From the NCBI GenBank assembly GCA_947649205.1, contig CANSQM010000013.1, positions 1 through 64,000 of the forward strand: 64,000 nucleotides of DNA, written 5' to 3'. Each line of letters begins with the position of its first letter. Position 1 is the first letter of the stretch. A model generated the notes under the pieces. The model had not been told where the DNA came from. It ran no database searches and worked only from the letters and a program-made list of their open reading frames with translations. This stretch comes from an uncultured Enterorhabdus sp. (GTDB lineage Bacteria; Actinomycetota; Coriobacteriia; Coriobacteriales; Eggerthellaceae). Below are positions 13,148 through 53,169 of this stretch, one piece after another. The position numbers and the translations under genes are program-made.

Positions 13148-13263
13148 GAACGGGGCGGTGGCTGTCGGCCCGGCCGTCCGCTGGCCGGCTTCCCTGTGAA
13201 TCCCCGACCTGACCGATATGCCCTGGGAGATGTCGAGGCGGTTCTTGTCGCGCCCCGAGTTGT

Positions 13264-13425
13264 TTTTCGGCTTGAAAAGCACGACCTTGGAACCGTTTCG
13301 GAACTTGAAGGGGGAGGGGCGTATTACATTTTCGGAGTTTTCCCTCGTGGCGTAATACCGGGGGAGGCGATTTCCTCGATTTCGGGCAAAATCGGTTCCA
13401 AGGTCGTGCTTTCCAAGCCAGAAAA
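13264..13425. repeat. Long hairpin repeat, family C copy 1
   Basis: Outer arms (about 13267-13296 and 13392-13419) match as inverted repeats over 26 of 27 bases (GGCTTG...GGAACCG). Inside them an inner inverted pair GTATTAC (13321-13327) / GTAATAC (13352-13358) is spaced by 24 bases. The element covers the 3' end of the AbiEi-like gene and supplies its TAA stop. A second, diverged copy sits on the other side of that gene. Confidence 0.8.
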
Positions 13426-14547
13426 TGCTCTGGCGCCTGAAAGCGGCGAACATTCGGGCGCGGTGCGCGAATCGGCAGGTGTCGAGCACGGCAGGGCGGC
13501 TGCGACCGATTCGGGAGCGCCTTTCAGCCATTCGCGACGGTGGTATCGGCTGAGCGACCAGCCTGTGCGGAAGAGGACGCCCTGCTGCTGACGAAATGCG
13601 GCGCTTTGGGGTCTCAGTCGGGTACCCATGCGTCGCCGCGACTGTTCGGCGACTTTCCGCATTTCTTCCCGGCTGCCTATTTGCCGCGCGGTAACCGTGA
13701 TGACTTTGTACCCGTCGGCTTCAAGAGCCAGCCGTTTCTGGGCATCGCGCGTCAGCTGCGTCGCGCTTGCATGCTCGGTGTTGGAGTCGTACTCGATGTC
13801 GAGACGGCTGCTCTCGCAGAGGATGTCGGGGACGAGCGTGTTTCGGTGAGCGATGGCGCGGGCCTTGGAACTGGGCTTTACGCGGCGGTTGGCGGCGATA
13901 CCCGGCAGTTGGTAGCCCCCAAGGCGATAGGGAAGGCCCAAGGCCATGGCCAGAAACACCTCGGGAGGCGATGCGGCGCCGTCTACCATGAGGTCGAGGG
14001 CCCGGCGTGCCGGCTTCGCGCCGAGGATGCCCGGATTGCGCCCGACGAATGCTCCGATGCGCCGCACGCTGGTGAGCGGTCGGCGCTTTCCCAGGCCGTT
14101 GCGTGCTTTGGGATCGATGAAGAAGGTGCCGCACAGCGCGTTGCCCACCTTCACGAGTTCGTGGAGGTCCAGGCTGTTCGCGACTTGGACGAAGCACAGC
14201 TCGGGGCAGGGCGCGTATATTCCGCTGGCCACACGGCAGAACGGCTTGCCGGTAAGCTTGAACTGGGAGCGATGGGGCGCAACTCCGTCAGGGCATCGCT
14301 TCATGCGCGCGGAAACCGCAACATGGTAGGGCCGGGGGATTTGAGGGCAGCAGCGCGCGAGATATTGGATTGCCGCGTCGTTGGGCTTGCAGTTCCGCAG
14401 CGCATTTTGACCTACCCGGTTTCCTTCGCCGGGTGTGGCCGGGGCCGAAAGCCACCAGGAGAGCGCCGATATGCCGTATAGGAAAATTCGCATGGGCGTA
14501 TTGTAGGGGGTTCGCCGGCGTTCGGCATGCCCGGCCGCCGCTTTCAT
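13324..14547 (-). CDS. AbiEi/DUF559-like putative nuclease-fold protein
   Basis: About 407 codons from an ATG at 14547 (fair GCGGAACA ribosome site), or 389 from an ATG at 14493. IFLYGISALSWWL opens the conserved part, SGIYAPCPELCFVQVAN and ELVKVGNALCGTFF lie mid-protein, and PDILCESSRLDIEYDSNTEH ... DAQKRLALEADGYKVITV resembles the endonuclease-fold (PD-D/E-x-K, Vsr/DUF559-like) domain that ends many AbiEi-type proteins. Function is not established; an antitoxin- or defence-like role is possible. The last ~40 residues are encoded by a hairpin repeat and look unrelated to the domain. Base use is less GC-biased than in neighbours, suggesting transfer. The opposite strand also has a long open frame, judged a shadow. 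Confidence 0.6.
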   Translation of the reverse strand: MKAAAGHAERRRTPYNTPMRIFLYGISALSWWLSAPATPGEGNRVGQNALRNCKPNDAAIQYLARCCPQIPRPYHVAVSARMKRCPDGVAPHRSQFKLTGKPFCRVASGIYAPCPELCFVQVANSLDLHELVKVGNALCGTFFIDPKARNGLGKRRPLTSVRRIGAFVGRNPGILGAKPARRALDLMVDGAASPPEVFLAMALGLPYRLGGYQLPGIAANRRVKPSSKARAIAHRNTLVPDILCESSRLDIEYDSNTEHASATQLTRDAQKRLALEADGYKVITVTARQIGSREEMRKVAEQSRRRMGTRLRPQSAAFRQQQGVLFRTGWSLSRYHRREWLKGAPESVAAALPCSTPADSRTAPECSPLSGARAFSGLESTTLEPILPEIEEIASPGITPRGKTPKM

Positions 14548-14673
14548 GAATGTTCCGCTGTGGTAAGTCAGCGGCTCAGGGTTCGGGCGCGTGCGGAACC
14601 TTTTCGCCTGGTTTTGGCGTGCCGTCGGCAGTAAGGGGCCGCCCCGTCTCGGCGGGGATTTTCCGTGCCTGAA

Positions 14674-14843
14674 GCGTTTTCTGGCTTGAAAAGCACGAGT
14701 TTGGTCCCTTGGACTGTGATTTTGCTGGGAATGGTAATACATGACCTGGGGAAACAGAGGGAGATGTATTACAAACTGGCTTCTTTTGGACGCTTTTCGG
14801 ATCGATCGGGTTCCAAGGTCGTTGTTTGCAAGCCTGAAAACGC
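14674..14843. repeat. Long hairpin repeat, family C copy 2
   Basis: This element has the same design as the copy at 13264. Outer arms at 14674-14713 and 14803-14843 start GCGTTTTC and end GAAAACGC with several mismatches. An inner inverted pair GTAATAC (14734-14740) / GTATTAC (14766-14772) lies between them. It sits upstream of the AbiEi-like gene's start, so the gene is bracketed by the pair. Confidence 0.75.
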
Positions 14844-15287
14844 CCCAAGAACCGGAGAGACGCTCGTGTTGCAGGCATCTCGGGAGGAGAAAAGCATGTC
14901 GTGGCGCGAGGGACGGAGGAGTTTTCGCAAGCGGGAAGGGGTAGGGCTGTTGAAAGTTCTCCCAGTTCATTGCAAGGGTTTAGGGAAAAGTTTACGGGAA
15001 TAATCTTTTTCTGGTGCGTCTTCCGATGCGCTGGGCGCCGCCGGTGGTCATAGTGAGCACCGTCGCGAGGCGCGGTAGGGAAGGGCTCCGGCCCCCTGAG
15101 CGCCCTTTGCGGCCGAACAGTTAGGTGGGCGTGCGGTGCTCGCGGGAGCGCCGGGCCGCGGACGACGGTGCGCGGCGCGCCCGAGGAGGTTTTGCGGGGC
15201 CGATGGCAATGCGCCACCCGGAGCTCACGGGAGCGTCGGGCGCGCCTGCCCTCCGGATCCCGCACGAAAGAGAGAGAGGGAGTTGCC
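14844..15287. other. Intergenic stretch upstream of the flavoprotein gene
   Basis: No convincing gene lies here. Bases to about 15015 are AT-richer and continue the island composition; from about 15030 normal GC resumes. A purine-rich ribosome site (AGAGAGGGAG) precedes the flavoprotein. No clear -35/-10 pair was found. Confidence 0.5.
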
Positions 15288-32595: not shown

Positions 32596-32683
32596 CGATC
32601 TCGTTTACCGAGGCAGGGAAGGGCAGCTGAATTGTTCTGAACTGCGGCAATGCTAAGTGAGAAGCCCATTTTCGTGGGAGTAG

Positions 32684-32811
32684 CCGAGCGGGGGCGGGAG
32701 GGCCCCGCGCGCAGATTCCGCAGTCTCGGAAATAATGGTGTAAAATTTTCCCACCATTATTTCCGAAAGCGAGGACTTGTTTGAGCACGGGGCCCTCCCG
32801 CCCCCGCTCGG
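32684..32811 (+). repeat. Structured repeat family A, copy 2
   Basis: A perfect 24-bp outer stem (32684-32707 with 32788-32811) encloses GCGCGCAGATTCCGCAG, a perfect 15-bp inner hairpin (32726-32740 with 32752-32766) and CGAAAGCGAGGACTTG. It lies between the PPOX-type gene and an AGCS symporter gene. Confidence 0.9.
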
Positions 32812-32868
32812 CGGTCGGGGCATGGAGTTCTGGCTCCTTTGCCCGACAGGCAAGTCCCTAAGGACCTC

Positions 32869-36404: not shown

Positions 36405-37829
36405 ATGCGCGAGGCGAAGACGGTGGCAATCATAGGCGGCGGCGCGGCGGGGCTTGCAGCAGCGGTGGCGGCGGCAGAGGCCGCCCGCGCGCCCGGGGCG
36501 GCAGAGGCCGTCGTGGTGTACGAGGCGTCCGACCGGGTGGGCCGCTCCATTCTGGCCACGGGCAACGGGCGCTGCAACTTCTCGAACGCACGGCCCGACG
36601 CGGCCCTCTACCGCCACGGCGATTTCGTGGCTGCGGCTTGGGAGGCCCTGGAGGCGAAGGGCACCGGCGCGGAAGGCGACGGAGCCGCCGGCCCCGGTTC
36701 CGCCAATGTGGTGCTGCGATTCTTCGCCGAGCACGGCCTGCTGTGGCGCGAAGAGGGGGAGGGGCGCCTGTATCCCCTTGCGAACAAGGCCACCTCGGTG
36801 CTCGATTGCCTGCGGGCGTCCTGCGCCGCCTTGGGTGTGGAAGAGCGCTGCGAGAGCGCCGTGGCCGCCGTAGAGCCGCCGCGCGGGCCGGGGCGCCCCT
36901 TCGCCCTGCGCCTGGCCGATGGGCGCTTCGAGCGGGCCGACGCGGTCATCGTCGCCGTCGGCGGCACCGTTGCACGCATCCTTCTGCCGGAAGGGCTGCC
37001 CTTCGTCGAGCCCACGCCCACGCTGGGGCCCCTTGCCACCGAGACCCGCTGGTGCCGCCCCCTCGATAATATCCGCGTGCGCGGGGCCCTGGAACTGCGC
37101 CGTGGGGGAGCCGTCATGGCGCGGGAGGTGGGGGAGGTGATGTTCCGCAAGTACGGCGTGTCGGGCATCGCCGCCTTCAACCTGAGCCGTCTGGCCGAAC
37201 CGGGCGACGTATTGGCCGTGGACTTCCTCCCGGCCCTGGCCGCCGACCGTACCGAGGCGTTCCTGCGTGACCGCCGAAAGGCCCTACGGGCCGCCCTCGG
37301 CCGGGAAGTAACGTGGGACGATATGCTGCGCGGCATGGTGCTGGCCCCCGTGGCCGACGTGCTGCTGGCCGCCGCGGGGCTCAAGGGGAAGGCCCCGGCG
37401 GCCGTGGCCGAGGTTGCCCTGGTGGCCGCCGTGCTCAAGGGGCTCACGCTGCCGGTGACGGGTCTCGGTGATGTGCGCCAGTGCCAGGTGCACCGCGGCG
37501 GCGTGGCCGTAGAGGCCGTGGATGCCGCCTCCTGCGCGCTGCGCGCCGTGCCGGGGCTCTACGTGGTGGGCGAGGCCCTGGACGTGGACGCCCCCTGCGG
37601 CGGCTACAACCTGCACTGGGCCTGGGCCTCGGGCCTGCTCGCCGGCGCGAGTGCTGCGGAAGGGCTGGCAGTCTCCTCCGGCTCCGAGCGGGGCGAGGGG
37701 GCGCCGTGCTCAGACAGTCCTCGCTTGGTGCGACAGTCCCCAGGACTGTCGCAGTCGCTGCGGAACTGCGCGCGGACCCCCTCGCCCCGCTCGGAGCCTG
37801 CTGGTTCGGGAAAGCGGGGGCGGCGATGA
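36405..37829 (+). CDS. HI0933/BaiN-like flavoprotein with a repeat-encoded C-terminus
   Basis: A 474-residue FAD protein. The Rossmann motif VAIIGGGAAGLAAAV opens it, ATGNGRCNFSN and GEVMFRKYGVSGIAAFNLSR are family hallmarks, and GGYNLHWAWASGLLAG is the usual end. The family is of uncertain function (NAD(P)/FAD-dependent oxidoreductases, BaiN-like). The normal protein would stop soon after ASAAEGLAV; the last ~45 residues, rich in Ser, Arg and Pro, are encoded by a family A repeat. GGAAG before the ATG at 36405 supports this start over 36378. The stop overlaps the next gene (ATGA). Confidence 0.85.
   Translation: MREAKTVAIIGGGAAGLAAAVAAAEAARAPGAAEAVVVYEASDRVGRSILATGNGRCNFSNARPDAALYRHGDFVAAAWEALEAKGTGAEGDGAAGPGSANVVLRFFAEHGLLWREEGEGRLYPLANKATSVLDCLRASCAALGVEERCESAVAAVEPPRGPGRPFALRLADGRFERADAVIVAVGGTVARILLPEGLPFVEPTPTLGPLATETRWCRPLDNIRVRGALELRRGGAVMAREVGEVMFRKYGVSGIAAFNLSRLAEPGDVLAVDFLPALAADRTEAFLRDRRKALRAALGREVTWDDMLRGMVLAPVADVLLAAAGLKGKAPAAVAEVALVAAVLKGLTLPVTGLGDVRQCQVHRGGVAVEAVDAASCALRAVPGLYVVGEALDVDAPCGGYNLHWAWASGLLAGASAAEGLAVSSGSERGEGAPCSDSPRLVRQSPGLSQSLRNCARTPSPRSEPAGSGKRGRR
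37680..37798 (-). repeat. Structured repeat family A, copy 3 (reverse, inside a coding sequence)
   Basis: A perfect 22-bp outer stem (37680-37701 with 37777-37798) encloses a perfect 11-bp inner stem (37729-37739 with 37743-37753). On the minus strand it carries GCGCGCAGTTCCGCAGCGAC and CAAGCGAGGACTGTCTGAGC, mixing features of both subtypes. It lies wholly inside the 3' end of the HI0933-type gene and is read in frame. Confidence 0.88.
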
Positions 37830-51514: not shown

Positions 51515-51642
51515 GGGGAAGGGCCCGGCGACGGTTTGCGCGCAGATTCCGCAGACTCGGAAATATTGGGGTAAAATCCCTACACCAATATTTCCGAAAG
51601 CGAGGACTTGCCCGAGCACGAGCCGCCGCCGGGCCCTTCCCC
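51515..51642 (+). repeat. Structured repeat family A, copy 5
   Basis: Outer stem 51515-51530 with 51627-51642 (16 bp, perfect). The inner stem CGGAAATATTGG (51558-51569) with 51585-51596 is perfect. The loops carry GCAGATTCCGCAGACT and CGAAAGCGAGGACTTG. It lies between glyA and upp. Confidence 0.9.
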
Positions 51643-52322: not shown

Positions 52323-52346
52323 GTTTTATTGAGCTAGCGCAGGCGA

Positions 52347-52464
52347 AAGACCCGGCGGCTGTCCGCGCGCAGATTCCGCAGACTCGGAAATTCTGGTGTA
52401 GAATTCCCACACCAATATTTCCGAAAGCGAGGACGTGCCCGAGCACGGGCAGCCGCCGGGTCTT
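52347..52464 (+). repeat. Structured repeat family A, copy 6
   Basis: Outer stem 52347-52365 with 52446-52464 (18 Watson-Crick pairs plus one G-U). Inner stem 52385-52399 with 52409-52423 (two mismatches). The same subtype loops as copies 2 and 5 are present (GCAGATTCCGCAGACT, CGAAAGCGAGGACGTG). It lies between upp and the dCMP deaminase gene. Confidence 0.9.
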
Positions 52465-52555
52465 CCGCCGGAGGGATCGGCGCCGAAGGCGAACAGCGGA
52501 GCGGGGCGTGCCTGCGGAGTGCGGGCACCCCGTCCCGAGATGGGAAGGAGCACCA

Positions 52556-53059: not shown

Positions 53060-53169
53060 GGAGGAGGCGGGTGTCCCAACCGAGCGAGTTCCACAGCGAC
53101 GGGAAGTGTCCAGTGGACACTTCCCCAAAGCGAGGACTGTCTGAGCGAATTGGGATACCCGCCTCCTCC
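53060..53169 (+). repeat. Structured repeat family A, copy 7
   Basis: A 20-bp outer stem (53060-53079 with 53150-53169, one G-U pair) and an inner stem GGAAGTGTCC (53102-53111) with 53115-53124. The loops carry GAGCGAGTTCCACAGCGAC and CAAAGCGAGGACTGTCTGAG, the same subtype as copies 1 and 4. It lies after the dCMP deaminase gene, before the ATP synthase operon. Confidence 0.9.

Follow-up and report, generated by a model that had tools for sequence, protein, structure and literature searches.

The locus described here raises the question of whether a single gene and the two long palindromes on either side of it belong together and, if so, as what kind of system. It lies in a window of 64 kb, by which we mean the whole stretch of DNA that was analysed. 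The original prediction proposed a compact mobile or selfish unit, composed of a nuclease-fold protein together with a pair of structured ends as its possible recognition sites, or else a defence or antitoxin gene with operator-like hairpins.

One gene between two palindromic elements

As predicted, two palindromic elements of about 165 bp were found to bracket one gene. The features of the locus are listed below; strand does not apply to the palindromes and their inner sites.

13263-13425, strand not applicable: palindromic element copy 1, with arms at 13263-13298 and 13390-13425 facing inward
13321-13327, strand not applicable: inner GTATTAC site of copy 1, with its partner GTAATAC at 13352-13358
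13324-14493, minus strand: gene for a protein with a putative Vsr/EDxHD-like nuclease domain; read as 389 codons, with 13530-14493 as the part conserved in the family
13337-13344, plus strand: central core GTTTTCCC of copy 1, degenerate, with CCCTCG where other copies have CCCTGG
14673-14844 (approximate), strand not applicable: palindromic element copy 2, with arms at 14673-14704 and about 14813-14844
14734-14740, strand not applicable: inner GTAATAC site of copy 2, with its partner GTATTAC at 14766-14772
14742-14749, minus strand: central core CCAGGTCA of copy 2, read on the plus strand as TGACCTGG

The arms of copy 1 (36 nt each, 91 nt apart) are 89% complementary, with an inner stretch matched at 26 of 27 nucleotides. 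The near-perfect arms that had been claimed for this copy are thus borne out, as are the greater divergence of copy 2 and the presence of the inner GTATTAC/GTAATAC pair in both; the inner sites were also found in further copies of the same element family. From anchor to anchor, the arms are 150 bp apart in copy 1 and 151 bp apart in copy 2. When folded as single-stranded DNA and compared with dinucleotide shuffles, copy 1 gave a z of -3.8 (0 of 200 shuffles as good) and copy 2 a z of -3.1 (2 of 200). An Rfam scan of the elements returned a single match, to a miRNA family and far under the gathering score, which was dismissed as a hairpin artefact. A scan of the entire 64 kb recorded six further inverted repeats with a score of at least 34. 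Those at 32683-32812, 37680-37798, 51515-51642, 52342-52469, and 53060-53169 are G+C-rich, have arm separations of 68-88 bp, and have no homologue of the gene family nearby.

The gene lies between genes and not within one. Its neighbours are a queA-like and a flavoprotein-like gene (named from their translations), and no second gene was seen between the two elements. The reading frame stops at 13324, within copy 1, and its last 65 or so codons consist of intervening DNA and element, so the element provides the stop codon. A run-on of about 65 codons into the downstream element (13324-13530 on the minus strand of the window; also at loci L104 and L118) was seen in three species.

The C-terminal half of the protein appears to be a Vsr/EDxHD-like nuclease domain. 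Pfam scans detected only MTES_1575 and DUF559, both under the gathering cut-offs, with no HUH/Y1 transposase domain and no AbiEi domain in 28 family members. Of the AbiEi/DUF559-like label first given to the gene, the DUF559 part is retained on these sub-threshold matches and the AbiEi part is not. The NCBIfam and PADLOC scans of the gene family gave nothing credible, PADLOC leaving the window protein unmatched and giving no more than marginal restriction-enzyme matches for two relatives. In the alignment of the 28 members (25-57% identical to the window protein), residues S175, E178, G192, G193, N202, D223, E234, H241, and D250 are invariant. The best match of the profile among solved structures was PDB 3r3p, annotated as a "mobile intron protein" (E = 0.0014, with an alignment spanning profile positions 231-285 only), followed by PvuRts1I; 3r3p is I-Bth0305I, an EDxHD endonuclease. 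Profile-profile comparison with hhalign linked the family to actinomycete DUF559/AbiEi-like proteins with a probability of 99.7 over 209 columns, and two of these relatives have AbiEi matches under the curated cut-offs. Since AlphaFold reached a pLDDT of only 36 on a 4-sequence alignment, the fold assignment rests on sequence profiles.

Recurrent pairing of gene and palindromes, and anatomy of the elements

Seven homologues of the gene were found in the window genome, and 27 of the 36 genomes searched harbor members of the family. Among 100 genomes sampled across the phylum, strong and near full-length matches were confined to the same family and order, and the more distant actinomycetes gave weak, partial matches only.

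The paralogues on contigs C7, C6, C1, and C2 of the window genome are each flanked by palindromes, every time with a different arm sequence. When the upstream flank was compared with the downstream one, the similarity score was at least 41 at 31 of 71 homologues, against a median of 26 and a 99th percentile of 38 for swapped-flank controls. Inverted repeats were then scanned within 600 bp of the gene (arms 25-260 bp apart). A score of at least 30 was obtained beside 63 of 90 Coriobacteriia homologues, as compared to 3 of 90 stretches further out (a control that is largely coding), 1 of 90 shuffles, and 1 of 20 actinomycete relatives; with a threshold of 35 or more, the counts were 54 of 90 against 3 of 90, 0 of 90, and 0 of 20, respectively. 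The other inverted repeats of the window (score at least 34) served as a second yardstick, and their density of about 0.1 per kb is far under that of the homologue flanks. After clustering at 50% protein identity, 37 of the 59 representatives were positive, versus 2 controls, and positive homologues were present in 16 of 16 genomes. Both flanks were positive in 25 of the 90 homologues, one-sided cases were common, and about 30% of homologues had no detectable flanking palindrome. The closest homologue in genome G005 (L235) is not bracketed, though that genome has solo copies of the element. Protein similarity and arm similarity are correlated across 58 loci (Mantel r = 0.24, p = 0.001), a correlation to which shared ancestry contributes. 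The pairing of a nuclease-fold protein with two ends that it might recognise is therefore strongly supported: it recurs with different palindromes at independent homologues, the arm sequence tracks the protein, and several of the families have solo copies.

Element arms are about 25-35 nt long, face inward, and have a sequence specific to one gene family. The position weight matrix of the arm, built from about 60 loci, reads TGGCTTGrAAwnnACGrttttggg; the consensus (TGGCTTGnAAnnnACG..) has no GTAG or CGTC tag at its foot, and the elements measure 130-165 bp. Arm pairs are invariably inward-facing, with zero back-to-back pairs within 300 bp. The distances between facing arms cluster at 55, 65, 118, 127, 139/140, 150, 160, 171, 190, 200, and 242 bp. 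They recur every 10.4 bp, a regularity that random placements attain with P about 4e-4 once neighbouring distances are collapsed to 11 clusters, and some loci have additional nested arms 50, 61, or 72 bp outward. As this is the period of B-DNA, we infer that proteins sit on one face of a looped duplex rather than that the element acts as an RNA hairpin; the 10.4-bp steps give the arms the appearance of protein-binding sites that share one face of the DNA.

Elements with unrelated arms have in common a central motif, roughly GAAAACnCCAGGTCAC, that is usually located mid-element. Its core CCAGGTCA is present in 11 of 65 non-redundant element centres, where 0.2 would be expected from mononucleotide shuffles, and its orientation relative to the gene follows no clear rule. 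The core includes CCAGG, which fits the CCWGG context known from Vsr repair. Its occurrence alongside a Vsr-like protein is suggestive and may be coincidence.

Dispersed copies and concerted evolution of the arms

In the window genome, the arm pattern GGCTTGNAANNNACG matched 15 times and its reversed control 0 times. The eight further Adlercreutzia genomes gave 3-25 matches each, and the 51 remaining genomes from the family and order 0-4. A stricter pattern was run against one genome per species (84,980 species) and matched repeatedly only in Adlercreutzia; the element family of the window is essentially confined to this genus. Among viral contigs, we found no relatives of the protein and three isolated matches to the arm pattern.

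The window genome has elements of this family at eight places: besides the two bracketing copies, there are six solo copies, on contigs C1, C6, C28, C31, C37, and C49. The solo copies are essentially intergenic (one extends a few bases into a reading-frame end), no homologue of the gene was found near any of them, and the genes flanking solo elements are unrelated to one another. Palindromes without the gene, which had been named as an outcome that would speak against the original prediction, thus occur at six of the eight places. They do not refute the pairing, because dispersed copies of a bracketing element are the pattern seen in REPtrons. A search with concatenated elements also detected solo copies of the C7, C2, C6, and C1 families in the window genome. 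The single 3.38-Mb contig of G011 contains about 18 copies of the L270 family, mostly 75-83% identical over the whole length, and 3-9 copies or none of other families. The arm-to-arm distance was exactly 130 bp in 12 of the 12 L270 copies measured.

Further features were observed in G011. In elements of the L270 family (L323-L342), a conserved extension adjoins one of the arms on its outer side (..TATATGACTTGCAGCATCA before TGGACA), so that the unit that moves or functions is possibly asymmetric. This genome also has 126 places within 1 mismatch of the 16-mer parS consensus TGTTTCACGTGAAACA (reversed control 0), chromosome-wide and including loci L494-L503, a count that far exceeds the usual handful. 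Four L270-family solo copies have such a near-parS site about 20 bp outside the same arm, and some solo copies of the L274 family lie within about 250 bp of one. A second dispersed palindrome, near-perfect and about 57 bp long (TCTTCGCTCCAAAAACACGCCTC..GAGGCGTGTTTTTGGAGCGAAGA; for example L370-L375), is present in roughly 30 copies.

All Adlercreutzia species have the same inner arm half, TGGCTTGnAA. Their outer arm halves differ from one species to the next and are rather uniform within each:

Genomes G000, G002, and G004: ACG-ACCTTGGAAC or GTTTTGG
Genome G001: ACG-AAACATCGG
Genome G005: ACG-GTTTnGGGGA
Genome G006: ACG-ATTCTTTGAC

Over the outer 10 bases, mean mismatches were 3.1 within a genome versus 6.5 between genomes, and in the inner half 1.1 versus 1.2. 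At two orthologous loci, "MNFVQGHK" and ABC-F, arms compared between species are mismatched at 7.0-8.9 of 10 positions, the identical arms of G000 and G002 being the exception, and compared with the other loci of their own genome the same arms have 1.8-4.2 mismatches in 10. By these computations the arms undergo concerted evolution, being homogeneous within species and diverging between species in step.

The search for empty sites in relatives, suggested with the original prediction, revealed presence/absence differences: G000 and G005 have the element at ispH, which G001-G004 lack, G007 lacks the "MNFVQGHK" element, and G002 lacks the ABC-F element (ispH and ABC-F are names assigned by reading translations). 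No clean target-site duplication was seen at three empty sites, which differ by more than the element. Some solo elements are kept at orthologous positions across species. The gene unit of the window lies at the queA locus in G000, G001, G002, and G004, and homologues with related arms in G003 and G008 (L151 and L131) are at other places, indicating that the unit moved or rearranged. The ispH elements of G000 (L137, contig C37) and G005 (L128, contig C11) both have G005-type arms, with 1.7 mismatches to G005 and 5.4 to the own genome for the G000 copy, which is consistent with a possible transfer between species. A candidate second unit in A. caecimuris (L103, G002:C1:137836-139275), with facing arms 1.44 kb apart, was rejected as it holds no relative of the gene. 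It is a window-family element split by an insertion of about 1.3 kb whose frame looks like an IS helix-turn-helix protein, and its interior looks like an IS insertion into the element.

Competing explanations and relation to known systems

An explanation of the locus has to accommodate the recurrent and specific pairing of gene and palindrome, the dispersed copies, the helical architecture, the shared core, and the concerted evolution established above. On balance, we favour, with modest confidence, that the unit is one member of an undescribed Coriobacteriia family in which a nuclease gene is accompanied by cognate dispersed palindromes, as a selfish, REPtron-like entity. Judging from the sequences, the protein most likely binds the arms and acts on the core, and would thereby spread or homogenise the elements. 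A dimer or higher oligomer would read the arms, probably via its variable N-terminal part, and loop the DNA; the C-terminal Vsr/EDxHD-like domain would nick or cut at or near the core; and repair or copying from another element would, hypothetically, spread elements to new sites and overwrite old ones. No classical transposase would be needed for gene and elements to propagate together in this way. To our knowledge, no nuclease of the Vsr/EDxHD type mobilises short palindromes. The concerted evolution could alternatively proceed via protein-independent gene conversion or turnover, or via selection on operator sites.

The last of these routes belongs to a different reading, in which the family is a domesticated regulator or chromosome-architecture system: the protein would loop DNA, the nuclease fold would serve for binding or rare cutting, the solo elements would be operators or anchors, and elements would co-evolve by selection. 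DNA looping typically involves helical phasing of the kind seen in the arms, the six solo copies of the window genome are intergenic with some orthologous positions retained across species, and the AbiEi antitoxins, remote relatives of the protein, bind inverted repeats (PMC7319586). However, the conserved catalytic-type residues argue for cleavage, the genes flanking the elements are unrelated to one another, elements are found downstream of the gene too, and about ten sites changing in step would be hard to obtain by selection alone. We consider this reading less likely, though as the main rival it deserves to be kept in mind. The defence alternative of the original prediction, in the form of a type IV toxin-antitoxin or other AbiEi-kind gene with operator palindromes in its own promoter, fares worse. 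Autoregulation of AbiEi through inverted repeats (PMC7319586) and the hhalign link to actinomycete DUF559/AbiEi-like proteins would fit it, but 0 of 28 members have an AbiEi match, PADLOC gives nothing for the window protein and marginal restriction-enzyme matches for two relatives, no partner gene is seen between the elements, the actinomycete relatives are without palindromes, and the elements stand downstream as well as upstream and solo elsewhere. We regard it as highly improbable.

Terminal inverted repeats, dispersal, and presence/absence polymorphism would equally be expected of MITEs or of the ends of an unrelated transposon, with the gene as a passenger or hot-spot neighbour. This is improbable in view of the different palindrome families each paired with a member of the same gene family, arms that track the protein, the helical-register spacing with nested extra arms, and a core common to several families; moreover, no transposase was seen beside the elements, and the lone IS-like frame (L103) interrupts its element. 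Finally, the elements are able to fold as single strands and might be RNA-level hairpins (terminators or leaders) unlinked to the protein. With arms up to 160 bp apart, a B-DNA period, multimeric arrays, weak pairing at the centre, and a single Rfam match far under the gathering score, this is hardly credible, and it leaves the link to one protein family without a reason.

The nearest analogy to the selfish gene-palindrome unit that we favour is the REPtron (tnpA-REP/RAYT with REP/BIME/REPIN), whose gene is bordered by and matched to dispersed palindromes (PMC8266576). Similar to the REPtron, the window system has cognate bordering palindromes that are also dispersed genome-wide, and several distinct gene-palindrome pairs, in which gene and palindrome co-vary, are found across related genomes. 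It is nevertheless not a member, as protein, element size, and anatomy differ: the protein is a Vsr-like nuclease by its profile in place of an HUH/Y1 transposase, and instead of GTAG-tagged single hairpins of 20-40 nt there are elements of about 130-165 bp, in which a shared core lies between two distant arms that keep helical register. The EDxHD homing endonuclease I-Bth0305I, a dimer that binds a long target of nearly 60 bp (PMC3943268), appears by profile to belong to the same nuclease superfamily and to have the same catalytic-type order E, D, E, H, D. The window gene, in contrast, is outside any intron or intein, differs in its N-terminal part, and is bracketed by putative target sites present in many copies. 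Actinobacterial AbiEi/DUF559/MTES_1575-type proteins are homologous over about 209 columns, but have little N-terminal similarity, and the 20 examined are without flanking palindromes clearly above background. Type IV AbiE systems differ in that no AbiEi domain was found in the 28 members and no AbiEii nucleotidyltransferase gene was seen adjacent. Vsr endonuclease appears to share the nuclease superfamily, and CCWGG, its sequence context, is matched by the CCAGG of the element core, whereas the role of Vsr is to act on T:G mismatches in repair.

In the open-licence papers, we found no account of DUF559/AbiEi-like genes with palindromes, nor any such repeats described in Eggerthella or Adlercreutzia. 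Judged on this incomplete literature, no known family covers the system, and we set it apart as a new kind because each known kind considered fails a tested defining feature. Its parts, a nuclease superfamily and dispersed palindromes, are already known. We tentatively put forward, as plausible rather than probable, that mobile DNA of a new class is at work here: in place of a transposase or recombinase, a nuclease of the Vsr/EDxHD type would spread the many palindromic elements that it recognises through bacterial chromosomes and rewrite them, with an arm specificity that diverges fast between species, a core that stays fixed, and several independent, non-cross-reacting families per genome.

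Genomes throughout Coriobacteriia, those of gut genera among them, have several copies of the gene family, which is without an assigned function; its cognate, dispersed, and fast co-evolving elements make it a testable protein-DNA system. If the nuclease does spread or homogenise the elements, it would be a second, independent solution to the problem posed by REP/RAYT, the multiplication of short palindromes in bacterial genomes, and the divergent protein-arm pairs would constitute a natural set of long-site DNA-recognition modules.
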